Of a stretch of 64,000 bases of DNA, positions 39,639 through 63,897 are shown one piece after another; the stretch's first letter is position 1, and every line of letters starts with the position of its first letter. The translations under genes were made by a program, and so were the position numbers. Source of the DNA: Prochlorococcus marinus XMU1402 (lineage in GTDB: Bacteria; Cyanobacteriota; Cyanobacteriia; PCC-6307; Cyanobiaceae); contig NZ_JAAORD010000002.1 in assembly GCF_017696205.1 (NCBI RefSeq), positions 62,001 through 126,000 on the forward strand, in the 5' to 3' direction. The notes under the pieces are model-generated. The model was not told the origin of the DNA. It saw nothing but the letters and a program-made list of their open reading frames with translations, and did no database searches.

Positions 39639-39712
<74 letters not shown>

Positions 39713-39800
39713 CATTATTATTTCTTAAAGAATCATTCAAAAATTAATTTTTCTAATAAATAATTTAGTAAAACACGAAATTTTTAAAACTTTTTAATGA

Positions 39801-52132: not shown

Positions 52133-53956
52133 CTAATTATTTATTTGTGAGTCAGCAAATTTTTTAAATAAAATTGAATTTTCATAAAGATAATTTAAGT
52201 CTCCTTGATCAACTAATCTACCGCTTCTGAACAAGAAAATATGATCCACAAATTTGAGAGTTGAAAATTGATGAGATATAGAAATTAATGTAACTTTTCT
52301 ATGTAATTTATTAAATGCAGATCTTATTAAATCCTGAGAAATAGAATCTAGGGAATTAGTTGCCTCATCTAAAATTATTATCTCAGGATCTTTATAAAGG
52401 GCTCTCGCTATTGCTATTAATTGTTGCTGGCCTCCAGAAAGAAGTTTGCCTCTTTCTTTTAAATTAGTTAATAAACCTTGAGGTAAATTATAAACGAAGT
52501 TTTTTAAACCAACTATCTCAAGACATTTTAAAACTTTATCTTCATCAATATCTGCTAATTCAATACCAAAAGCAATATTCTCTTTTATTGTCAAATCATT
52601 TATCTTTGGTTGTTGAGGTACGTATCCAATCTTACTTTGCCATTTGTCAACACCAAATTTTTCTAAATTTACCCCATCCACTAAAACATTGCCCTTTGTT
52701 GGATTCAATAGACCATTGCAAATATCTACTGTCGTTGATTTACCTGCACCAGAAAATCCTACGAAACCATAATGTAATCCTTTTTCAATTTCAAGATTTA
52801 TATTATTTAAAGAGTAATTTTTAGAAGAGGGATATTTATAATAGACATTTATTAAAGATAATTTATTCCATAAAAATGAAGAAAAATTATTATTTTTGGT
52901 TTTATCCAAATAATTTTCATGATGTACTTCTAAAAATATCTCCTTCAATTTTTTAGAAAAGACGTGTGCGTTAGAAACGGCATTTAAGGAATTCCCTAAT
53001 TTGTTCAAAAGGGGGACAATTTTGAAAGCAAGTAAAGTTATGACAGTCATAATCCCAACAAGCCTACTCTGACTAATATCACTTACGAATAAAGCGGTGC
53101 CTAATATTACAACAGACAATTGGCTTAACATAAGTACTGAATTAGCCGGAAGAAGATTATAGTTTTCTATTCGAGCTTGACCATATGCAAAATCTTTCCA
53201 CAAATAATTAAATTTTTTTAGAAAATTATTTTTATTATTTGAAAGTTTTATATCCTTTATCCCCTGCAGAAGTTCTGTGAGAAAAATATTTATTTCATCA
53301 ATTTTAATTCTTTGCAAATTGGTTATTCTATTTGTTCTTATCCTTATGTACTTTAAAAAATAAAATATAAAAAACGAAATCAGGAATAATAAAAACAAGC
53401 CATATCTTGGAGATAATATAACTACACTCACAAGAGGAATTATTAGACAAGAAATATATCCTATTAAAAGAGGAATTTGTTTGATAACCCCTCTACTCCA
53501 GTATGCTAAATGGTTAGAAAAAAGATTCATTAATTTTATGGAGTTTTTCTGTAAATGCCATTCATAATCCATAATTGCAAAATTTCTTACAATATCGTTT
53601 CCCAACCTACTTTGACATCTTGCTGCAAAAATATTTAAACGATATTGAGAGTAAAGACTAATTAGAGATGAACTAATTATTATTAATGTTATTGAGAGTG
53701 ATAAGTAAATAATGAATATGTTTATAGTTGGCGAACCTAATAAATGCCAAAGATAATTGTAATTTTTGTCATCATAAATTAAGTTTGGATTTAGAATTAC
53801 AGAAACAAAAGGGAAGATAGAAAAAACCGTTAAAATATCAAATGAAAAACTTACAAAACAAATTAAACAGTAGATAATTAATTTAATTTTTTCGTTCTTT
53901 TTAAGAAGCGAAAGAGATGTTTTAAAAACATCTAATTGATTGAATCTTATTTTCAT
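52133..53956 (-). CDS. ABC transporter, fused permease and ATPase (glycolipid exporter-like)
   Basis: 607-aa half-transporter of the MsbA/PglK type: about six transmembrane helices (residues 27-330), then an ATPase with Walker A GFSGAGKSTTVDI, signature LSGGQQQLIAIARAL, Walker B PEIIILDEATNSLDS and H-loop ISISHQFST. It acts as a homodimer. Its place between glycosyltransferases and the nonulosonate genes suggests that it flips a lipid-linked oligosaccharide across the inner membrane. Confidence 0.93.
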   Translation of the reverse strand: MKIRFNQLDVFKTSLSLLKKNEKIKLIIYCLICFVSFSFDILTVFSIFPFVSVILNPNLIYDDKNYNYLWHLLGSPTINIFIIYLSLSITLIIISSSLISLYSQYRLNIFAARCQSRLGNDIVRNFAIMDYEWHLQKNSIKLMNLFSNHLAYWSRGVIKQIPLLIGYISCLIIPLVSVVILSPRYGLFLLFLISFFIFYFLKYIRIRTNRITNLQRIKIDEINIFLTELLQGIKDIKLSNNKNNFLKKFNYLWKDFAYGQARIENYNLLPANSVLMLSQLSVVILGTALFVSDISQSRLVGIMTVITLLAFKIVPLLNKLGNSLNAVSNAHVFSKKLKEIFLEVHHENYLDKTKNNNFSSFLWNKLSLINVYYKYPSSKNYSLNNINLEIEKGLHYGFVGFSGAGKSTTVDICNGLLNPTKGNVLVDGVNLEKFGVDKWQSKIGYVPQQPKINDLTIKENIAFGIELADIDEDKVLKCLEIVGLKNFVYNLPQGLLTNLKERGKLLSGGQQQLIAIARALYKDPEIIILDEATNSLDSISQDLIRSAFNKLHRKVTLISISHQFSTLKFVDHIFLFRSGRLVDQGDLNYLYENSILFKKFADSQINN

Positions 53957-54010: not shown

Positions 54011-55216
54011 TTAAGGGTATCCTTTCCCTACATTTATTAATTTTTCTCCAATATTCCGCACAATAGAACTATTAGCTTTAAACCCTATTTTTTTCATATC
54101 AATAGTAATAATTTTACTTTTTTTATTTTTTTCATTTGGATTTCTAATTTTAAGACTATCTAATATAAAATTAATACTTCCATTTTCTATACCAAGCCAA
54201 TCGCAAAATAATTGATTATACAAAGATGGCATTTGAGAATAATACTTAATGAGATTTCGGGCATCTTCTCTTGAAATCCTTTTGTGTCGTATTTCTCTGC
54301 ATGCATGATCAGTAACCTTGCTAAACCCATGTTTTTTTTGTTTAATAATGTCATGCATATTCATATAGAACCAATCATCAACATGATCAAAAGTATCGAA
54401 AGTCCTATTCAATTTCGATGATTTATAATCAAATTTTTTTATCATTTCTTTATGTTGCATCAAAGGGTCCCATCTTATATAGTTTCCTAAATAAATACCT
54501 CTAATCCCAATACTTTCAATTTTCGCTTCACTAGGGTATCTATACTGCCATATATCTTCTTCATTTAGAGAGTCATAAACTTGCAAAAGATCGTCTGGTT
54601 CATATCCCATTAAATCATGATCTTTTCTATATCTCCTAGTCATCTCTACATCATGAAGATGAGAAAACATTCCTACTTGCTCTAAGCCTTGATGAGCTCC
54701 CCATATTATCAATGGTATTTTGTGAGTAACTGCTGTTTGCACAGGGAATACACTCTGACCTGCCAACGCAGGCCATTGAAAACTTTTTAGTCTTCTCAAA
54801 GTAGTTTTAATTATTTTTTTAACGCTAGTTGGATTAACATTCATAGTCAAAATGTCACAGTTAAAATTCCTCCTTAGTGTTGCTAAATTGTGGATACCAA
54901 GGGGAGTGTTGTAGTAACGATTGTATGTAACCAAAAGAGGATTTAAACCTAATTTATTTTTAACATTATGTAAGATGTAAAATGAATCTCCAGCTCCAGT
55001 AACGGGGACAATACAATCATAATTTCTTGAATCTTTACTTTTATATGGCTTAACTAACTCAACTAACTTATTCCATCTTTCATCCCAATCAATACTGTCT
55101 TTTTCTTCATGAATTCTACATCCGCTACAAATTCCTTCATTATCAATAATTAAGCCCAAAGGATGATTTGAATCGTAAAGGCATCTTTTACAGGTTTTGA
55201 AACTAACTTTTTTCAT
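54011..55216 (-). CDS. N-acetyl sugar amidotransferase paralogue with degenerate PP-loop (PseA/WbpG family)
   Basis: 401 aa from ATG 55216, 1 bp after the HisF-like stop (the ORF reaches GTG 55225). An N-terminal C-x2-C pair and a second pair (CKRCLY, CSGCRI) resemble a zinc ribbon as in WbpG/PseA, enzymes that convert an acetamido group of a sugar to acetamidino using ammonia from HisH. The ATP PP-loop, SGGKDS in the family, reads TGAGDS here (residues about 73-78): the Lys is missing. The rest (RYRKDHDLMGYEPDDLLQVY; EIRHKRISREDARNLIKYYS) is family-like. It may be less active, use another nucleotide mode, or act as a partner. Confidence 0.82.
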   Translation of the reverse strand: MKKVSFKTCKRCLYDSNHPLGLIIDNEGICSGCRIHEEKDSIDWDERWNKLVELVKPYKSKDSRNYDCIVPVTGAGDSFYILHNVKNKLGLNPLLVTYNRYYNTPLGIHNLATLRRNFNCDILTMNVNPTSVKKIIKTTLRRLKSFQWPALAGQSVFPVQTAVTHKIPLIIWGAHQGLEQVGMFSHLHDVEMTRRYRKDHDLMGYEPDDLLQVYDSLNEEDIWQYRYPSEAKIESIGIRGIYLGNYIRWDPLMQHKEMIKKFDYKSSKLNRTFDTFDHVDDWFYMNMHDIIKQKKHGFSKVTDHACREIRHKRISREDARNLIKYYSQMPSLYNQLFCDWLGIENGSINFILDSLKIRNPNEKNKKSKIITIDMKKIGFKANSSIVRNIGEKLINVGKGYP

Positions 55217-55217
55217 T

Positions 55218-55979
55218 TTATCCACAACTTTTATGAAATCTTATTTGTTTAGAATTTAATGAATTTTTGATCTTTTTTATTGAATGTTCTTTATAGTTCA
55301 AGGTATTACCTATTAGTATTCCAGATATTTGTGGTGTAGAAAGTAACTTTGAAATTTGGTGATCGTTAACTATACCCCCAAAGACTAATATTGGCAGTGA
55401 AGTATAATTAATAATCTCGTTTACAAAATCGTCATTAAAACCACCAAGTGAACCCTCCCCTTCTTTATCAATTAAAATAATCTCAGATAAGCTTTGTAAA
55501 TCAGAAATTTTTTTTAAATATATGCTTATATCTTCTTTTTTGTTTAACCTATGATTATAGTACGAAATTTTTCCATTATTTTCTTTTATTAGAGGAATTG
55601 AAGCTAAGATTGCTTGCTTACCAACAGCTTCAGAAATAAGTTTAATCTCAGAAATATTATCATAAATAACAGTATCCAAAACTATTCTCTCAGCACCTGA
55701 ATTAATAACTTCAATTGCATCTTTACTATTCCTAATTCCTCCCCCATAAGTAAAAGGTGTGGTTAAGCCAAGAGCACTTATTGATTTGATTAATTCAAAA
55801 TCAGGTCCATTGTTTTGTCTGTCAGTTGATAGCAAAACTATTTCATCTGCTCCCCATCTATCAAAATTTTCTGCTAAACAATAGGGTTTTCCTAGAGGAA
55901 GCCATTCTTTATAAGAAAAAGACTGAACAGCCATGCTGTTTTTTACCACTATAGTTGCAATTATCCTTTTTTTTAGCAT
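55218..55979 (-). CDS. hisF: HisF-like cyclase subunit homologue (HisF2) of the amidotransferase system
   Basis: 253-aa TIM-barrel protein of the HisF family. It begins MLKKRIIATIVVKNSMAVQS; the catalytic Asp at position 11 of true HisF (CLDVKDG) is replaced (IVVKNS). A second Asp region (EIILIDKEGEGSLGGFN) is present. Lack of Asp11, the island context and the neighbouring amidotransferases show that it is the HisF2/WbpI-type ammonia-channelling partner, not the histidine enzyme. It sits directly after HisH (stop adjacent to its ATG). Confidence 0.88.
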   Translation of the reverse strand: MLKKRIIATIVVKNSMAVQSFSYKEWLPLGKPYCLAENFDRWGADEIVLLSTDRQNNGPDFELIKSISALGLTTPFTYGGGIRNSKDAIEVINSGAERIVLDTVIYDNISEIKLISEAVGKQAILASIPLIKENNGKISYYNHRLNKKEDISIYLKKISDLQSLSEIILIDKEGEGSLGGFNDDFVNEIINYTSLPILVFGGIVNDHQISKLLSTPQISGILIGNTLNYKEHSIKKIKNSLNSKQIRFHKSCG

Positions 55980-56597
55980 CTAAATTACCATCTCATTAAT
56001 TATTCTATCCAACAACTTCATTCCTGATTGTTGACTTTTTTCAGGGTGAAATTGCAGACCTACTGTTTTTCCTCTTCTTATAGCCGCTACTATTGGGTTA
56101 TCTTCTTGATTAATCCTGCTAGTAGCAAATATAAATTCCTTTGGTCCTTCGTAACAATATGAATGATTAAAAAACATTGGTTCATTATCGCTTAATTTAA
56201 AAATATTATCTTTTCTAGTAGCCTCAATTGAATTCCAACCAATATGCCATCTTTGCCCTTTAATTGGCTCAATAGAACCTGGGATTAATCCCAAACCATC
56301 TGTAAATTTTATTTCCTTTGAACAATCAGCAAACAATTGCATCCCAAGACATATTCCAATTAAAGGTTTACTAGACTTATGAGCATCTTTTAAGTAAGAA
56401 ACAAGATCATACTGATATAGATAATTCATTGCCGTGGGGAATGCCCCTACCCCCGGCAAAACAATAACATTTGCTTTATCAAGTTCATTTTTGTCTCTGC
56501 ATATTTTTGCTCTATAGCCCAGAGTTCTTAATGATCGCAATACAGATATGTGATTCCCAACCCCGTAATCGAGAATTGCAATAGAAATTCTACTCAA
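55980..56597 (-). CDS. hisH: HisH-like glutamine amidotransferase (HisH2)
   Basis: 205-aa class I glutaminase: nucleophile in GICLGMQLFADCS, His/Glu in GLQFHPEKSQQSG, oxyanion region LPGVGAFPTAM. It supplies ammonia to a sugar amidotransferase. TTG start overlaps the upstream amidotransferase stop (TTGA), and HisF2 follows immediately. The catalytic triad is intact. Confidence 0.93.
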   Translation of the reverse strand: MSRISIAILDYGVGNHISVLRSLRTLGYRAKICRDKNELDKANVIVLPGVGAFPTAMNYLYQYDLVSYLKDAHKSSKPLIGICLGMQLFADCSKEIKFTDGLGLIPGSIEPIKGQRWHIGWNSIEATRKDNIFKLSDNEPMFFNHSYCYEGPKEFIFATSRINQEDNPIVAAIRRGKTVGLQFHPEKSQQSGMKLLDRIINEMVI

Positions 56598-57730
56598 TAC
56601 TTAAGCCCAAATCCAACTTTAAATTTTTTTTTGATTTTTCCATTTTTATCTATTGTGAACAATTTTTTATTCATATTGTTATGAACCTTATCCCAAAAGT
56701 AATTTTCTGATATCTCAATATACTCACAGAAACTTTTAATATAATCTTCTCCACAACAACCATCATATTTCTCAATAATTTCAATACCTTGCTTTCGGTT
56801 TATTCTTTTTGCCCTAATTTCTTCGTTCACGTAGTCAGTAGCCCTACCAAAACCAAATTTATAATATTTTATCATTTGATTTAGTGTTACCCAATCCTCG
56901 TCAAGTGAAGTAAGCCCATAGAGATCGCCAGAATTTTCTGGTACGTCGCTTCTTAACTCCAAACCATTTAAAGAGGAATAGAGACCATTGTTAACTAAAG
57001 ACCAATCTCCTAAAAACCAGCCTAAATAGACAATTTGCAAATTAGCATTTTCAAATTCATCAATATCTGGATAAAGGTAGGGTAATAATATTCTTTCTTC
57101 AAATCCTTCATCTTTAATCCATTCGATTCCTCCTCCACTTAAAGTATTCATGAACCTTAAATTATTTCCGTCATAACCTGTTTTTCCTAAAGTCTTAAGA
57201 TCTCCTAGCTGTAAACCAGGATTTTCTCCCCAAAAAATCAATGGAATTTCATATTGAATCGCTAATCTTGGCACAGCACTAAATAATGCTAATTCAGTAG
57301 ACTTACACCAATTTGTAAATTTTGAGAACGATAGAGACATTAATTTTCTCCAAGTTTCAGGTGCAGGAGCAATAGTTCTCACATCAAATCCTAACTCTAT
57401 CAAGTTCGATAAATTATCAACCCCTCTTTCAGTTATCTGTTCGGGAGGATATGAAATACAGACTAATAAAGGATTAAGTTTTAATTTATCTCTTATCCAT
57501 AAAGCTTGCCTAGTGCTATCTTTACCTCCACTAACCCCAATAATACAATTATGTTTATTGGAACCTTTTATTGAATACTTATCTATTAGGTCTAATAATA
57601 TGTCAAATCTTTCTTGCCAATCAACATTTTTTAATTTGGAAAAATAATTACAAGCCGGACATACTCCATCATTGGTGAATGAACTATTTGGTCTTGTATT
57701 AGGTTGTAAACAACTAATGCAATATTTCAT
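56594..57730 (-). CDS. pseA: N-acetyl sugar amidotransferase (PseA/WbpG family, canonical PP-loop)
   Basis: 378 aa. C-x2-C pairs CISCLQ and CPACNYF at the N-terminus, then the ATP PP-loop CIIGVSGGKDSTRQALW (SGGKDS at 67-72). It is expected to convert an acetamido to an acetamidino group on a nonulosonic acid or its precursor, with ammonia from HisH/HisF next to it. The C-terminal region AKRINRKQGIEIIEKYDG aligns with the same segment in its paralogue at 54011, and ARPETW-like APAPETWRKLMSLSFS lies in the middle. Its stop overlaps the HisH start. Confidence 0.9.
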   Translation of the reverse strand: MKYCISCLQPNTRPNSSFTNDGVCPACNYFSKLKNVDWQERFDILLDLIDKYSIKGSNKHNCIIGVSGGKDSTRQALWIRDKLKLNPLLVCISYPPEQITERGVDNLSNLIELGFDVRTIAPAPETWRKLMSLSFSKFTNWCKSTELALFSAVPRLAIQYEIPLIFWGENPGLQLGDLKTLGKTGYDGNNLRFMNTLSGGGIEWIKDEGFEERILLPYLYPDIDEFENANLQIVYLGWFLGDWSLVNNGLYSSLNGLELRSDVPENSGDLYGLTSLDEDWVTLNQMIKYYKFGFGRATDYVNEEIRAKRINRKQGIEIIEKYDGCCGEDYIKSFCEYIEISENYFWDKVHNNMNKKLFTIDKNGKIKKKFKVGFGLKY

Positions 57731-57733
57731 AAT

Positions 57734-58675
57734 TTAGAGGATATTTCTTAAGTGGATTATATTTTCATGGGGTAATCTACATTTTGGAGCCCATGGAGGC
57801 ATGCTACTAAAGGTTGGCAATCCGCAATTCATAGAAACTACCAATGCTTGAGTTTCACATCCAAAACAAGCATCAGTATAAACTAAAACTTCTGCAAGAT
57901 CTTTTTCTATTGTTTTTTTTACAGGAATAATATTTTCAAAATTCTTTATTAAATTATCGTATTTAGAAAATTCCTCAGATGGATGAAGCTTTATTTTGAC
58001 TTCTCTAATTTCATCAAAAGGGCATATAACATTCAAACTGGATAACCTATTTAGGTTGGATAAAAAATATCTCATACTTTGAAACTCTCCTTTTTCAAAT
58101 TTACCCCAACTTGATCTAATAGGCTCAGTTAGATAAAGAAGTTTTGAGGGTAATAAAGAAGATTCATATGTTTCTAAATTTTTTAAATAATTAACCTTTT
58201 TCTTGATATTCTCTAACCAAATATTAGGTATTTTAAAAATTGGAGTTTCTGAAAAAACTTGATTTGCTATTTTAAAAGCTTCGCAATCAGTTACCCATAT
58301 TTCATTTGGAAGAATTTCTTCCTTTCCTCTACAAAATCTCTCAAAATAATTAACCCAATGATCAATTATTGCGATACTAAAAATTCCTCTTTCATGCGCT
58401 ATTTTTCTTGAATTATGCTCTAAATCACTACTCCAGCCAGTACCACTAATGAGAAACTTTGTATCAATTAGAGATTCTTCTAATTTATAGTTTTTAAATT
58501 TTTTAAAATTATCTTTAAAAATTTCTAAAGCAGGACCATCTAGGCATAATTTCGTATTTTTTGTATTATTTTTAAAAATTTCTAAAAGATGATTGGCAGC
58601 TCCTGCATCATTTGCACAAATTGTAATTTGATGATCAAAGTTTTTTATTAAAAATCTATTTAATTTATTTATCAT
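57734..58675 (-). CDS. Hypothetical protein, possible GT-B nonulosonic acid transferase
   Basis: 313 aa, not firmly recognised. CANDAGAANHLLEIFK at the N-terminus and a Rossmann-like pattern (KFLISGTGWSSDLEHNSRKIA) fit the first half of a GT-B fold. The C-terminal half has REVKIKLHPSEEFSKYD around residue 230; a conserved His-Pro after a Lys is typical of sialyl- and polysialyltransferase-like (GT52/GT38) and CDP-glycerol transferase families. Between pseA and pseI on the same strand, it is a reasonable candidate for the enzyme that adds the nonulosonic acid to a glycan, but this is inference. Confidence 0.5.
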   Translation of the reverse strand: MINKLNRFLIKNFDHQITICANDAGAANHLLEIFKNNTKNTKLCLDGPALEIFKDNFKKFKNYKLEESLIDTKFLISGTGWSSDLEHNSRKIAHERGIFSIAIIDHWVNYFERFCRGKEEILPNEIWVTDCEAFKIANQVFSETPIFKIPNIWLENIKKKVNYLKNLETYESSLLPSKLLYLTEPIRSSWGKFEKGEFQSMRYFLSNLNRLSSLNVICPFDEIREVKIKLHPSEEFSKYDNLIKNFENIIPVKKTIEKDLAEVLVYTDACFGCETQALVVSMNCGLPTFSSMPPWAPKCRLPHENIIHLRNIL

Positions 58676-58709
58676 TTAATTTAAAAAATTTTAAAATATA
58701 GGATTACAT

Positions 58710-59768
58710 TTAAAGAAATTGATCAAAGTTAAAAGGGGAACCTTTTTTAAAACTCTTATTAGCAGTTTTACCTATAAAAGAGGATAAAAGGTATGGTGGA
58801 GCCCCCATTCCCGGTCTTACAATTCTAAGATTTTTATACGTAAATTTCTCACCCTTTTTAATATCTCTAGCAACATAAATAGATCTTCTGAATATTAAAC
58901 TTTTCTCTTCAGATTTGGTTGGGCCATAATTTATTTCACCAATTGCTTCCCAAGCTCTTTTAGATTCATTTACAAGTTGAGAAAACTCCTTTGGTTCCAT
59001 TGAGAATTGACTATCAACTCCACCATCAGACCTTGCTAAAGTGAAATGCTTTTCGATCACACTTGAGCCAAACGCTATGGATGCTACAGAAACCCCAATT
59101 CCAAAGGTATGATCAGAAATGCCTACTTCACAATTAAAAAGTTGCCTCAAGTGTTTAATAGTAGAAATATTTGTATCTTTAGCATTTGCAGGATACGTGC
59201 TTGTGCACTTTAGGAGGATTATTTTTTCACATCCGGCCTCTTTGGCAGTTAAAACAGCTTGTTCTAATTCTCCTAAGGAAGCCATACCTGTAGAAATAAT
59301 CAAAGGTTTACCTGTTGCAGATGCTTTTTTAATCAATGGCAGATGATTATTCTCAAAACTTGCTATTTTATATGCGGGAGTATCCAATTCCTCTAAGAAA
59401 TCAACAGCTTCTTCAGAAAAAGGAGAGCTAAAACAAATAATTTTTTTTTCTTTGGCTCGTTTAAATATTGCTTCATGCCATTCCCAAGGTGTATATGATT
59501 TTTTATAAAGTTCATGCAAGTTTTGGCCCTGCCACAAGCTCGATTTATCTTTTATTTTAAAATCACCTCCCTTAACGTTTAAAGTCAATGAGTCAGCCGT
59601 ATATGTTTGCAACTTAATTGCATCTGCTCCACTTTCAGCAACTGCATCAACAATTTCTAAAGCCTTTTCTATACTTTGATTATGGTTACCACTCATTTCA
59701 GCTATTATGAAAGGTGAATAATTTCTACCAATTTTTCTATTAGAGATCGAAATGCCTTCCTTAAACAT
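58710..59768 (-). CDS. pseI: Pseudaminic acid synthase-like protein (NeuB/PseI family)
   Basis: 352-aa NeuB-family synthase that condenses phosphoenolpyruvate with a 6-carbon diamino-sugar to give a nonulosonic acid. FIIAEMSGNHNQSIEKALEI and ADAIKLQTYTADSLTL, then YTPWEWHEAIFKRAKEKKI and CFSSPFSEEAVDFL, are closer to PseI (pseudaminic) than to NeuB (sialic) or LegI as I remember them. A C-terminal SAF (antifreeze-like) domain begins near residue 290 (RRSIYVARDIKKGEKFTYKN). EKHFTLARSDGGVDSQFSM supplies the metal/PEP segment. The product in this strain may be Pse or an epimer. Confidence 0.9.
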   Translation of the reverse strand: MFKEGISISNRKIGRNYSPFIIAEMSGNHNQSIEKALEIVDAVAESGADAIKLQTYTADSLTLNVKGGDFKIKDKSSLWQGQNLHELYKKSYTPWEWHEAIFKRAKEKKIICFSSPFSEEAVDFLEELDTPAYKIASFENNHLPLIKKASATGKPLIISTGMASLGELEQAVLTAKEAGCEKIILLKCTSTYPANAKDTNISTIKHLRQLFNCEVGISDHTFGIGVSVASIAFGSSVIEKHFTLARSDGGVDSQFSMEPKEFSQLVNESKRAWEAIGEINYGPTKSEEKSLIFRRSIYVARDIKKGEKFTYKNLRIVRPGMGAPPYLLSSFIGKTANKSFKKGSPFNFDQFL

Positions 59769-60003: not shown

Positions 60004-60441
60004 TTAAACATCTTTTTTCCTAAATTGAAAAGTTGATTGAATTTGCTCTGCACCTAGTTTAAGTAGATCATCTACATAATCATAATCACTAACAGAAACA
60101 TTAAAAATGAATTGATTAGGTATTAAACTTGTAATTCCAGGTTCCGGAGAGAAGTTTTCTAATACTTTTGTTATGACATTTCTCCTATAAACTACGTATT
60201 CAGGGAGTAAATGTATGCCAACTGTGTTGTTGAAGCCTATGTATTGCGCTCCAATATGTGTATTTCCTTTAATTACTATATTCCAAGTTTTATAAGGGTG
60301 GTTTAATACAAATTTCCGATGATCTTCAAAAGATGGTAACTTTTTATGACTTATAGAAGCATTCCTATTTTTCAGAAGAAAATATAGGAATTTAATTTCT
60401 TTCTCATTTGGAGGATTACTTAAAGAGATGAGTGAAATCAC
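60004..60441 (-). CDS. Putative GNAT-like acetyltransferase, divergent
   Basis: 145 aa. GTG start overlaps the stop of the upstream GNAT gene (GTGA). IKGNTHIGAQYIGFNNTVGIHLLP resembles the central beta-strands of GNAT enzymes, and LLKLGAEQIQSTFQF their final strand, but the Q-x-x-G-x-G/A acetyl-CoA loop of GNATs is replaced by EYVVYRRNVITKVL, so activity is doubtful. In the context of pseI and GNAT it may be a PseH-related or structural remnant. Confidence 0.5.
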   Translation of the reverse strand: MISLISLSNPPNEKEIKFLYFLLKNRNASISHKKLPSFEDHRKFVLNHPYKTWNIVIKGNTHIGAQYIGFNNTVGIHLLPEYVVYRRNVITKVLENFSPEPGITSLIPNQFIFNVSVSDYDYVDDLLKLGAEQIQSTFQFRKKDV

Positions 60442-60944
60442 GAGACTTCTAATGAATACATATGGAACCCTTCGTTTGTGGAAGGACAGGGTAAGAATCC
60501 TGCGGAAATAAATAAATTACTGCTTCTGTAGTTATTTTTCTTTATTTCAGCAAATATAAGACTTTTCTTTCTAATTTCGCTGTTAAAGAAACTAATACCA
60601 GAAGAAAGAAGCTTTAAACCATAGCCTTTCCCTCTGAAAATAGGAGATATATTTATACTGACTTCATAATGACTTTTATTCAAATTAATTAATTCAAACC
60701 TTAAAACACCAATTGATTTTTTTTCTGATAAATCTGTAGAGATTCCTAAGTAAATAAATTTATTAGGATCTTCAAGAGAATCTTTAAACCATTTTTCATG
60801 TTCTTCCCAAGTAATAATTTTAGGATTTCTTGATAAAGATCTTGTTTCATCATCATTTCTCCATTCCCAAGTTACTCTAGCGTGAAGAATATTAGCTTTT
60901 TCTATATGAAATTTATTAATTGAATCCATAGCCTTAAAATTCAT
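60438..60944 (-). CDS. GNAT acetyltransferase of the nonulosonate cluster (PseH-like)
   Basis: 168 aa from ATG 60944 (an ATG five codons on, 60929, is also possible). Contains TWEWRNDDETRSLSRNPKI and ITWEEHEKWFKDSLEDPN, a start characteristic of GNATs linked to pse/leg clusters, then the acetyl-CoA loop ISPIFRGKGYGLKLL (R-G-x-G-x-G). It probably N-acetylates a 4-amino intermediate before PseI. Overlaps the next GNAT-like gene by 4 bp; translation coupled. Confidence 0.8.
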   Translation of the reverse strand: MNFKAMDSINKFHIEKANILHARVTWEWRNDDETRSLSRNPKIITWEEHEKWFKDSLEDPNKFIYLGISTDLSEKKSIGVLRFELINLNKSHYEVSINISPIFRGKGYGLKLLSSGISFFNSEIRKKSLIFAEIKKNNYRSSNLFISAGFLPCPSTNEGFHMYSLEVS

Positions 60945-61128
60945 TATCAAAAGTTATCAAATGTGTATTAAAAAAATATTGAACGAATATACTTTTAAAA
61001 AATGTCATAACAGAAAAAATATACTTTCTTTTTGAACTTTTAATCAAAAGATAATTTAAAAATTATTAATTCAAAAATAGTTATTATTAATTAAATAATG
61101 TTGTTAAATAAAATTTAATCACTTCAGC

Positions 61129-61620
61129 ATGGAACTTCGTATATTAACGCCTAAAGATGTAACAAAAGCTTATGTTGATTGGATGCAAGATAAGGAAGTA
61201 GTTAAATACTCAGAAAATCAATATAAAATATTTTCAATTAAGAGCCAAAAAATTTATGTGAAAAATTGTCTTTCAGAAAAGGATATAGTTTTATATGGTA
61301 TTTTCATCAATTCAAAACATGTTGGAAATATATGCTTAAAAGGACTAAATTCAACACATAAACGAGCAGAGTTAACCTATATGATAGGAGTTAAGCAGCT
61401 TTGGGGTAAAGGTTTAGGCAATCAAGTAGTAGAAAAAATTGTATTAAAAGCAAAAGAAGAATATAAATTAAAAAAATTATATGCAGGTGTTGCTAGTGAA
61501 AATATTGCGAGTAAAAAAGTTTTAGAAAACAATAATTTTAAATTAGAAGGAATAAGAAAGAAACATCTTTTTTTAAATGATAATTTTATGGACCAGCTTG
61601 ATTACGGATTAATTTTATAA
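61129..61620 (+). CDS. GNAT acetyltransferase (RimJ/RimL-like)
   Basis: 163 aa on the opposite strand from its neighbours. ELRILTPKDVTKAYVDWMQD, strand GNICLKGLNSTHKRAELTYM, acetyl-CoA loop QLWGKGLGNQVVEKI and the SENIASKKVLENNNFKLEGI end match the GNAT/RimJ group. Likely acetylates an amino-sugar or protein N-terminus. It is divergent from the PseH-like gene with 184 bp between. Confidence 0.85.
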   Translation: MELRILTPKDVTKAYVDWMQDKEVVKYSENQYKIFSIKSQKIYVKNCLSEKDIVLYGIFINSKHVGNICLKGLNSTHKRAELTYMIGVKQLWGKGLGNQVVEKIVLKAKEEYKLKKLYAGVASENIASKKVLENNNFKLEGIRKKHLFLNDNFMDQLDYGLIL

Positions 61621-61639: not shown

Positions 61640-62929
61640 TCATTTTAAACTTTCTAAATTACTCCAAACTTTATTAAACGCCTTAACTATGTTATTGATA
61701 TCTTTATCTGATAATTCAAACAAACACATTTCGAATCCCAAATAAGTCTCATCTTGTAGTTTTTCTGCGATTGGACATATCCCCTTTTTATAATTAATTT
61801 CTCTTTTACAGATTTCAGAATTCCAAGGGAAACCTTTAGATCCATAAGCTATTTTTTTCTGATAAAGGGGTAGAAGGTGTAAATTGACATATTGTCTACT
61901 TAGACCTTGTACGCCCTCTGCAATCAAAGCTTCATATATTTTATCTCTGGATATTCCTATAATTGTTATATCCAATTGCATGAAAAACATATAGTAAGAA
62001 TGAGTACAATCCTCTTTAACAAATGGTGTCTTTAAGCCTTTTAATTTAGACAAACTTTCAGATAATTTATTAGCTGCTAATCTTCTTGTTTGAACAAGAA
62101 AGTTAAGTTTTTTTAATTGTTCAATTCCAATTGCGCATTCAATTTCTCCTAATCTAAAATTATGCCCAATCATATTACTTATATTTTTCAAATCAATTGC
62201 CTCAACTGAAGCCTCTGCATGATTTCTTATTAAATACATCCTCTCGGCCAGAAAATCGTCATTAGTAACTAATATTCCTCCTTCTCCAGTATGAATATGT
62301 TTATGGTAATTAAGGCTGTAACCGCCAATATCAGTTAACGTCCCTGCAAATTTCCCTCTATTCAATGCTCCGGGGGCTTGGGCAGCATCTGAAATAACCC
62401 TTAAATTATATTTATCAGCAATTCTATTTATTTCTTTTGTATTAGCAGGATGTCCTCCTATATCTACACTTATTATTGCCCTAGTATAAGGAGAAATATT
62501 TCTTTCTATTGATTCAGGTGATATACAAAAAGTATCTTCTTCAATGTCAGCAAAAACAGGAATTGCATTCCAATGAAGTATTGCAGTAGCAGTAGCGCAC
62601 ATTGTCCAAGTTGGAACAATGATTTCATCACCAGGTTCTATTTCTAAAGCACCTACCGCAGTAACAAGTCCTGATGTCCAAGAGTTTACTGTTATTGCGT
62701 GCTTAACATTAAAAAAAGCCTCACAATCTTTTTCAAATTCTTTTACTTTAGGACCCCCAAAAAAATCTTCTCCCCATTTACCTAAATATTTTGATAACAA
62801 ACCGCTATCCATAACTTTCTTAACTGCGTCTGATTCTTCTTTGCCTATTGAGTTATACTTCTTAAAAGGTTCTAATATTGTTTTTTTGCCCCCAAATAGA
62901 GCAAGTGTTTTATCTTCGTTAGTAATCAT
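61640..62929 (-). CDS. DegT/DnrJ/EryC1/StrS-family sugar aminotransferase
   Basis: 429-aa PLP enzyme. VNSWTSGLVTAVGALEIEPG and DEIIVPTWTMCATATAILHW at the start of the cofactor site, VISDAAQAPGALNRGKF, and the PLP Lys in YSLNYHKHIHTGEGGILVTN; RNHAEASVEAIDL follows. It transfers an amino group from Glu to a 3- or 4-keto NDP-sugar. It could be the PseC-equivalent of the cluster, but is longer than typical PseC, so another NDP-sugar is possible. Its ATG overlaps the stop of the Gfo/Idh gene. Confidence 0.9.
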   Translation of the reverse strand: MITNEDKTLALFGGKKTILEPFKKYNSIGKEESDAVKKVMDSGLLSKYLGKWGEDFFGGPKVKEFEKDCEAFFNVKHAITVNSWTSGLVTAVGALEIEPGDEIIVPTWTMCATATAILHWNAIPVFADIEEDTFCISPESIERNISPYTRAIISVDIGGHPANTKEINRIADKYNLRVISDAAQAPGALNRGKFAGTLTDIGGYSLNYHKHIHTGEGGILVTNDDFLAERMYLIRNHAEASVEAIDLKNISNMIGHNFRLGEIECAIGIEQLKKLNFLVQTRRLAANKLSESLSKLKGLKTPFVKEDCTHSYYMFFMQLDITIIGISRDKIYEALIAEGVQGLSRQYVNLHLLPLYQKKIAYGSKGFPWNSEICKREINYKKGICPIAEKLQDETYLGFEMCLFELSDKDINNIVKAFNKVWSNLESLK

Positions 62930-63897
62930 AAATTTGACTTGATTTGGTTTAAAATCTTTTGTGTAAGTAATGCATCTTTACCAGTACATAAAGTAACTTT
63001 TTCATTTTTTAAAGCATTGTTAATTTGCTCAGTAAAATGGAATTGTATTCTATCAAAATCATTTATATAAAGCTTTGGTTCATCTTCTAATACTTTATAT
63101 CCAACAAATCTTTGATCATTTTTGGATTTTCTCCATATTATTTGGGATCCGCCATTTTCGAAAGTTAGTTTACCATTAGAAAATATTAAATCTATATTAT
63201 TTAAAAAAATATCATTGTTCTTATTTGAATAGAAAACTATATTTCCCTCTTCGAAAATTAATTCAAAATCAGGTTGAGGGTCCTTTTTCTTTTTATTAAT
63301 ATTAATGATCCTCACTTTTTTTACATCACCAAAATAAAATTGAAATAAATCAATAAAATGAGATGAAGTATTAAAAATACCCTTTGAATAAATGCAAATA
63401 CCTTGAAAAGGTAAATGTATATTTTTCAATTTTAATTGGTTATAAATTTCTAAAAATGCTGGTTGTACTCTTCTAAAGTAATTAACAAATAATTTGCTCG
63501 AATTCTTTTTACATATTTCTACTATTTCAATCGCCTCATTTAATTCATAAGACAAAGGCTTTTCGCAAATTATTATTTTAGGTTTACCGTATTTAAAAAT
63601 CTTCTTTATATTGTCAAGATGAGATTCAGAAGAAGTTGAAACAATTACTATATCAGGGGAGAGGTTAATCATAGCTTGTTTAATTTCATTAAAAGCTAGA
63701 CATTTGTAATGTTTTTCAAATAAATCTCTAATCTCTTTCTTTATATCTACCCCACCTACTAATTTGAATTTCTCATTAAGATAAAATGATTTGCAGTGAG
63801 TAAGTATTTTTTCTTCACCTTGAAAATTCAAGTCATATAACATACCTATATTTCCAAGACCGATAATTAAAACTTTAGGTATTGGAGATGAATTCAT
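62926..63897 (-). CDS. Gfo/Idh/MocA-family sugar oxidoreductase
   Basis: 323 aa. Rossmann start KVLIIGLGNIGMLYDLNF, then PKIIICEKPLSYELNEAIEI with the conserved E-K-P motif and a C-terminal alpha/beta domain. It oxidises or reduces an NDP-sugar or inositol-type sugar. Paired with the DegT aminotransferase by a 4-bp overlap, a common keto-sugar amination arrangement. It is the last complete gene; the upstream 103 bp to the window edge hold no ORF. Confidence 0.88.
   Translation of the reverse strand: MNSSPIPKVLIIGLGNIGMLYDLNFQGEEKILTHCKSFYLNEKFKLVGGVDIKKEIRDLFEKHYKCLAFNEIKQAMINLSPDIVIVSTSSESHLDNIKKIFKYGKPKIIICEKPLSYELNEAIEIVEICKKNSSKLFVNYFRRVQPAFLEIYNQLKLKNIHLPFQGICIYSKGIFNTSSHFIDLFQFYFGDVKKVRIININKKKKDPQPDFELIFEEGNIVFYSNKNNDIFLNNIDLIFSNGKLTFENGGSQIIWRKSKNDQRFVGYKVLEDEPKLYINDFDRIQFHFTEQINNALKNEKVTLCTGKDALLTQKILNQIKSNL

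Follow-up and report, generated by a model that had tools for sequence, protein, structure and literature searches.

Positions 54,011 to 59,768 of a 64,000-nt stretch of Prochlorococcus marinus XMU1402 DNA (contig NZ_JAAORD010000002.1, positions 62,001 to 126,000; the whole stretch is hereafter called the window) hold two N-acetyl sugar amidotransferases (NASATs, WbuX family) placed around a single HisH-HisF pair, beside a PseI-type nonulosonate synthase. All seven genes of the run, including the ABC exporter at its end, are on the minus strand, and the coordinates of the open reading frames (ORFs) bear out the gene order and single strand given in the original prediction, which had been drawn from the letters of the sequence:

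58710..59768, minus strand: pseI-type nonulosonate synthase with NeuB and SAF domains (TIGR03586 PseI 490.7 bits, cut-off 340.25; Pfam NeuB, SAF)
57734..58675, minus strand: unclassified GT-B-fold protein, perhaps a glycosyltransferase (AlphaFold model; unmatched in NCBIfam and Pfam at E 0.001)
56594..57730, minus strand: NASAT1, canonical, with SGGKDS PP-loop, WGEN and tetracysteine (TIGR03573 269.9 bits, cut-off 203.2)
55980..56597, minus strand: HisH-type glutaminase, TTG start, GICLG and HPE motifs intact (TIGR01855 175.9 bits, cut-off 105.4)
55218..55979, minus strand: divergent HisF (cyclase aspartate positions D11 replaced by V and D130 by P)
54011..55225, minus strand: NASAT2, GTG start, with TGAGDS PP-loop, WGA for WGE, tetracysteine kept (TIGR03573 303.8 bits, cut-off 203.2)
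52133..53956, minus strand: ABC exporter (ORF) downstream of NASAT2, just outside the 54011-59768 span

The genes are tightly packed, with gaps of 34 nt between PseI and the unclassified gene and of 3 nt between the latter and NASAT1; NASAT1 and HisH overlap by 4 nt, HisH and HisF abut, and HisF and NASAT2 overlap by 8 nt.

Conservation and ancestry of the four-gene cassette

A collection of 84,980 species was scanned with a two-row NASAT2 alignment, that is, with NASAT2 patterns only, so that NASAT1 was not selected for. The scan returned 30 loci (locus labels begin with L and genome labels with G), of which 28 are close relatives of NASAT2 (53-67% identity) from Gamma-, Beta- and Alphaproteobacteria, Verrucomicrobiota, Chlorobiota, Bacteroidota, Pseudanabaena and one metagenome-assembled genome (MAG) of Sericytochromatia. 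Cultured strains that carry the cassette include Pseudanabaena sp. UWO311 and SR411 and Aquabacterium humicola. All four genes are present in 27 of the 29 loci so assembled (the window plus 26 of 28), L062 and L069 being cut by contig ends. In 27/27 complete loci they follow the order NASAT1-HisH-HisF-NASAT2 on one strand, an agreement that excludes a chance arrangement, and the distance from the NASAT1 stop to the NASAT2 stop stays within 2583-2665 nt. PseI above 350 bits accompanies the block in 17/29 loci, several of the others stopping at contig edges. Two genomic settings recur: one in which the cassette lies with PseI and other Pse genes that include a long PseG (a PseG-PseH fusion in L048, with a PseG of similar length in L053 and L054), and another in which it lies with PseI, a Gfo/Idh oxidoreductase, a DegT aminotransferase, a GNAT protein and the unclassified gene (e.g., L046, L049 and L067, the window having a rearranged version).

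The pairing of the two NASATs also holds in whole sets of genomes searched with models of each (thresholds of at least 500 bits for NASAT1 and at least 430 bits for NASAT2). In one family of 399 genomes, the NASAT1 type is found in five and the NASAT2 type in the same five; in one class of 321 genomes, the NASAT1 type is found in two and the NASAT2 type in those two and in G471 (459 bits), where NASAT2 adjoins a canonical NASAT outside the NASAT1 clade (L079), the partner being different but present. Five of the seven paired genomes (G392, G399, G396, G402, G411) had already come from the scan and two (G1022, G838) are new, G838 carrying more diverged versions of NASAT1 and NASAT2 (46% and 41%, respectively). 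Throughout, NASAT2 sits beside an intact NASAT in every locus with both sides covered. Two further arrangements were seen: two different cassette copies occur in contigs of one Sulfuritalea MAG (L043 and L060), which could reflect binning, and the cyanobacterial genome G280 (L008, L037) has three NASATs above the cut-off, of which two surround a further HisHF pair.

Among 131 genomes of the genus, only XMU1402 itself yielded a close NASAT2, the runner-up match being at 30% identity (in 44 genomes of this sample, completeness is 90% or more and contamination 5% or less); the cassette was therefore most likely acquired by XMU1402. Carriage by phages or plasmids was considered and set aside, as phages gave no match at E 1e-10, plasmids one match at 28%, and a single distant viral contig matched at 33%.

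The window NASAT1 and NASAT2 are 27% identical, and a maximum-likelihood tree built from 93 NASATs, with duplicates of a locus removed (L044 and L036 are one and the same), places each in a clade of its own (27 and 28 rows, both with 100/100 support), the two clades not being sisters. The sister of the NASAT2 clade in this tree is formed by L024, L026 and L029 (support 98/97). In a second tree of 92 rows, built by a quicker method without the long or divergent rows of 10 loci, L081 joins these three next to the NASAT2 clade (fork support 91), and L079 followed by L076 are the earliest branches within it. These four intact-loop relatives are each the sole clear family member in their own genomes at the thresholds used, with one family match for L024, one for L026 and one real match for L029 (a second reaching 22.8 bits); in G926 (L081), the relative retains SGGKDS and has HisH and HisF as neighbors, and no further NASAT was seen. 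As the nearest intact-loop relatives stand alone and the members of the NASAT2 clade are paired, what was once an amidotransferase of the usual kind has apparently become coupled to another. The L029 relative (L029:1426-3471) has an N-terminal extension of ~300 residues within one 681-aa open frame.

Sequence features of NASAT2, HisF and HisH

Both NASATs carry a CXXC...CXXC tetracysteine (CKRC/CSGC in NASAT2), and mapping of the zinc residues and PP-loops finds the tetracysteines kept in both and the loops SGGKDS and TGAGDS in NASAT1 and NASAT2, as originally read. NASAT1 combines a TIGR03573 score over the cut-off with the SGGxDS PP-loop and tetracysteine of the family. NASAT2 has the score, tetracysteine and fold of the family: 27/27 members of its alignment (A2, from which, as from the distance correlations below, L043 was left out) match TIGR03573 at E 1e-8, and its structural model (pLDDT 76.4) superposes on PDB 8WEX with Z 30.6 and rmsd 3.1 over 337 residues at 26% identity. 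That structure is LpNASAT of Legionella pneumophila, which has SGGKDS and crystallised as a self-dimer (PMC10607449); NASAT2 resembles it in fold and zinc tetracysteine and differs by TGAGDS in place of SGGKDS. The SGGxDS loop given for the family in PMC10607449 is replaced by TGAGDS in the window and is exact in 1/28 members of the NASAT2 clade, and NASAT2 is thus to be called a homologue rather than a proven enzyme of the family.

The differences are concentrated at the ATP site. We compared both proteins with a canonical set of 29 NASATs, omitting L041 (a very long branch) and keeping apart eight divergent NASATs with SGG[TLAV]DS. Of 20 near-invariant positions in this set, NASAT1 keeps 20, and the NASAT2 consensus differs at four, namely three PP-loop residues (S, G and K) and the WGE glutamate. 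SGGKDS is kept in 27/27 NASAT1 orthologues; in NASAT2, the lysine is replaced in 28/28 (by Q, N, H, G or A), and the usual form, [TS]G[AS]xDS, marks a widespread conserved subgroup. The WGE glutamate is alanine in 28/28 NASAT2 and glutamate in 29/29 canonical and 27/27 NASAT1 sequences. By column entropy, the PP-loop ranks among the top 0.3% of six-column windows for conservation in NASAT1 plus canonical rows and lies at the 55th percentile in NASAT2, and parsimony counts eight changes in NASAT2 at each of two columns of the loop and none in NASAT1. As a whole, NASAT2 is the better conserved protein, with a mean pairwise identity of 73% vs 66% for NASAT1 over shared columns and 68% vs 65% over all columns. 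The loop is most altered in two outlying members, L076 (RGTAEY) and L079 (VGTGDD), both still beside a canonical NASAT. TGAGDS had been allowed for in the original prediction as a loop that might be normal for an active subgroup; a conserved subgroup of this loop type does exist, but L076 and L079 have lost the loop altogether.

The cassette HisF had been labelled HisF2, and this standard label does not hold: it scores far under the cut-offs of WbuZ (127.8 vs 299.7) and AglZ/HisF2 (114.4 vs 310), which are nonetheless its best-scoring families. Through the housekeeping HisF of XMU1402, we mapped the positions D11, K19 and D130 (Thermotoga HisF numbering). D11 is replaced in 28/28 cassette HisF proteins, K19 is Q in 28/28 and D130 is P in 28/28. 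In a chosen sample of 10 HisF proteins beside single NASATs, D130 is kept in 9/10 and D11 in 1/10, and D130 is lost only in HisF of the block and in L076. With the cyclase aspartate positions replaced, a working cyclase is unlikely. The original prediction had foreseen neither this degeneracy of HisF nor the spread of the block over several phyla. HisH keeps GxCxG and HPE in 28/28 rows (with two variants, GFCLG and HPEIS). Evolutionary distances of NASAT2 correlate more closely with those of HisF (0.87), PseI (0.86) and HisH (0.81) than with those of NASAT1 (0.59), over 26, 27 or 17 loci; owing to shared ancestry, neither the loci nor these correlations are independent tests. Stretches homologous to HisH and HisF lie in one frame at L038:7640-9079 (G223), an apparent HisH-HisF fusion that also appears in L011 and L032, in both of which the open frame extends past the edge of the locus; these lie next to other NASATs, within the same family or genus.

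A candidate machine for sugar amidination

Some 6-9 kb past the window end (L006), PseB, PseC and PseF score above curated cut-offs, as does PseI in the window, so that four of the six enzymes of the pseudaminic acid (Pse) pathway (B, C, H, G, I, F) reach that level in the genome. The locus thus has the make-up of a PseA-type system, with a NASAT and HisH/HisF linked to Pse synthesis genes (PseI in the window, PseB/C/F nearby), and a pseudaminic-type acid bearing an acetamidino group is its predicted product.

PseA is a WbuX-family member, HisHF supplies ammonia to sugar amidotransferases, and in Pseudomonas aeruginosa O5, HisH2 and HisF2 work with WbpG in a system that differs from the cassette by its single NASAT and by its substrate, a hexuronic acid rather than a nonulosonate. 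As with Campylobacter PseA, a synthase for the acetamidino group (here a predicted one) lies among pseudaminic-acid genes together with HisH and HisF: PseA is Cj1316c, by locus number next to HisH Cj1315c and HisF Cj1314c (PMC12102941), and acetamidino-Pse is known in C. jejuni (PMC3068675, PMC13317340). Unlike the Campylobacter block, from which the second synthase PtmG (Cj1324), assigned to legionaminic acid (PMC13317340), is absent, the cassette has two NASATs of separate clades flanking one HisHF, with one ATP site degenerate. WbpG, for its part, is a NASAT for an acetamidino-type group on an O-antigen sugar (PMC10607449), and the cassette shares with it a NASAT, here predicted to form such a group on a surface sugar. 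Closest in gene content are the Pse loci L077 and L080, where PseB, PseC, NASAT, HisH, HisF, a PseG match and PseI lie together; they differ in having one canonical NASAT, no NASAT2 within 18 kb and a HisF that keeps D130. The cited known systems use one NASAT per sugar. In an alignment legend of PMC10607449, two V. vulnificus proteins have consecutive accessions and are perhaps another tandem.

From the observed gene content and order, cross-phylum conservation, separate NASAT ancestry, residue losses and pairing, we propose, with about even confidence, that NASAT1, HisH, HisF and NASAT2 form one machine that would convert an acetamido to an acetamidino group on a pseudaminic-type nonulosonic acid, with NASAT1 as the catalytic subunit and NASAT2 as an obligate partner in physical contact with the rest. 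HisH would release ammonia from glutamine and HisF, no longer a cyclase, would carry it. At the intact PP-loop of NASAT1, ATP would activate the acetamido oxygen, which ammonia would displace; use of ATP at the PP-loop has been proposed for NASAT (PMC10607449). NASAT2 would be a former amidotransferase, its ATP site disabled or nearly so and its own ATP chemistry presumably gone, whose most likely role is to bind HisF and/or the sugar and to hand substrate or ammonia over to NASAT1. We prefer such a pseudoenzyme partner because the ATP site of NASAT2 appears released from constraint while the rest of the protein is held, in a block with one glutaminase, one carrier and one ATP-using NASAT. More tentatively, and at somewhat under even confidence, we suggest that this four-subunit machine is widespread and moves horizontally, and that its NASAT2, dead or near-dead, and its dead-cyclase HisF serve as obligate non-catalytic subunits between the glutaminase and the live NASAT.

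The main rival reading, that both NASATs are active with one HisHF and amidinate the N5 and N7 acetamido groups of pseudaminic acid into a di-acetamidino sugar, appears less likely to us, and several observations argue for it or otherwise weigh against the partner proposal. Pse5Ac7Ac offers two acetamido groups (PMC3210612), and single-NASAT Pse loci such as L077 and L080 are expected if one NASAT serves one group. NASAT2 has its fold and tetracysteine intact, the PP-loop aspartate is kept in 28/28 and the last serine in 27/28, and the loops nearest to the canonical form are SGGQDS (L063) and TGGQDS (L047), so that nucleotide binding or chemistry by NASAT2 may persist. Its pocket side is almost invariant, as would also be expected of an enzyme with its own substrate. 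In G280 (L037; SGGVDS, SGGLDS) and G223 (L038; SGGKDS twice), two intact-loop NASATs lie near one HisHF, and thus two active enzymes can apparently share one glutaminase, which counters any general rule that a second NASAT is degenerate. The PP-loop may have been lost just once, long ago, in which case the loci are not independent, and L076 and L079 are long branches placed by the quick-method tree. The sugar assignment is likewise affected: the original prediction of an amidinated nonulosonic acid system stands at sequence level for PseI, PseB, PseC and PseF, but a complete Pse pathway was not recovered, since PseG was not found in the profile search of the XMU1402 genome (best 33.7 bits, cut-off 153.55) and PseH is represented by a gene under its cut-off. 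The retained aspartate, the conserved pocket and the intact pairs of L037 and L038 keep two active enzymes under consideration. Against them stand the replacement in NASAT2 of two residues, K and E, that never vary among canonical rows, the loop drift counted by parsimony, and the destroyed loops of L076 and L079; in leaving a degenerate copy as partner or modification of two positions as the options, the original prediction had posed this choice, and the loop loss in these two loci favors the former. Our literature search, mainly of open-access sources short of full text, found no di-acetamidino nonulosonate, nor any description of a pseudoenzyme partnership in sugar amidination or of a paired canonical/degenerate NASAT module.

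We consider it improbable that NASAT2 took on another reaction or substrate, e.g., a second sugar of the same glycan made by the Gfo/Idh, DegT and GNAT neighbors. Relatives of the Gfo/Idh gene (neighbor family 8, in 11/28 loci) and DegT genes resembling that of the window (neighbor family 4) do recur beside the cassette, and the fixed E-to-A change (28/28) looks more like a re-specialised pocket than free decay, but L045, L048, L053 and L056 have neither Gfo/Idh family 8 nor GNAT family 9 within a 17-kb stretch, and an ATP-dependent reaction is hard to reconcile with the loops of L076 and L079. Ordinary redundancy of paralogues with one copy decaying, named in the original prediction as recent duplication, would agree with the degenerate PP-loop of NASAT2 and is nevertheless very improbable: the two NASATs are 27% identical and in separate, fully supported clades, NASAT2 is retained beside an intact NASAT in all loci covered on both sides, and its entropy is lower than that of NASAT1, which already contradicts decay. 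On identity, clades and conservation, we reject NASAT2 as a recent duplicate or decaying copy.

The NASAT family is described as little known (PMC10607449), and the paired module bears on the cooperation between sugar amidotransferases and HisHF and on the presence of two such enzymes in some loci, offering a clean comparison of one intact and one degenerate NASAT with a common ammonia source. The calculated mass of a Pse residue is 316.13, 315.14 or 314.16 Da with none, one or two amidino groups. For DMB-labelled nonulosonates (quinoxalines), PMC7371886 gives m/z 451.18 for PseAc2 and 450.20 for LegAmAc, and the calculated value with two amidino groups is 449.21. Acetamidino-modified pseudaminic acid is bound by a protein of a Campylobacter phage (PMC4690887), so that a role of the cassette in the contact of picocyanobacteria with phages is conceivable by analogy; the effects on phages or grazing put forward in the original prediction are conjectural.

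The unclassified gene and the surrounding genes

The gene between PseI and NASAT1 (57734..58675) matched nothing in NCBIfam and Pfam at E 0.001, the PseG profile included. Its AlphaFold model (pLDDT 88.8) is structurally matched by MurG (Z 16.3), UDP-GlcNAc 2-epimerases (up to 15.8), NeuC (15.8), a polysialyltransferase (14.3) and PseG (13.7), and on this model it perhaps encodes a transferase, although the GT-B fold cannot separate a transferase from a hydrolase or epimerase. Homologues above 120 bits occur in 13/29 loci, the window counted. We considered it as a stand-in for PseG because PseG was not found in XMU1402. As a general substitute it is ruled out: PseG is over the cut-off in 22/27 cassette genomes (L060 and L069 being outside these 27) and in 12/13 of those with the unclassified gene. 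It may still play that part in XMU1402 alone, the exception among the 13. With PseB/C/F/I present and PseG not found, the UDP-sugar hydrolysis step of XMU1402 is unexplained.

Upstream of PseI, the window continues with further genes:

60004..60441, minus strand: short protein, encoded between PseI and the PseH-like gene and of no recognised family (unmatched in NCBIfam and Pfam at E 0.001)
60438..60950, minus strand: PseH-like GNAT N-acetyltransferase (TIGR03585 55.3 bits, under the cut-off of 93.1)
61640..62929, minus strand: DegT-family aminotransferase, not PseC (PseC model 217.8 bits, under the cut-off of 423.5)
62926..63897, minus strand: Gfo/Idh/MocA oxidoreductase (Pfam PF01408)

A GNAT gene at 61129-61620 is on the plus strand, and its family (9) is elsewhere mostly in line with the cassette. 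On the other side, ABC homologues lie directly 3' of NASAT2 in L043 and L059 as well. The locus lies in a surface-sugar stretch of the window that is somewhat AT-richer (GC 0.25-0.31 after 40 kb vs 0.29-0.37 before) and starts near a tRNA-Arg at 39639-39713. A second nonulosonate locus lies ~11-14 kb past the window end (L006:11107-14041), with NeuC above its cut-off and a NeuB-type synthase and a cytidylyltransferase both below theirs. Farther along the same contig region (L006:17095-17906), two tandem 124-aa ORFs with near-identical N-termini are likely the result of a duplication.

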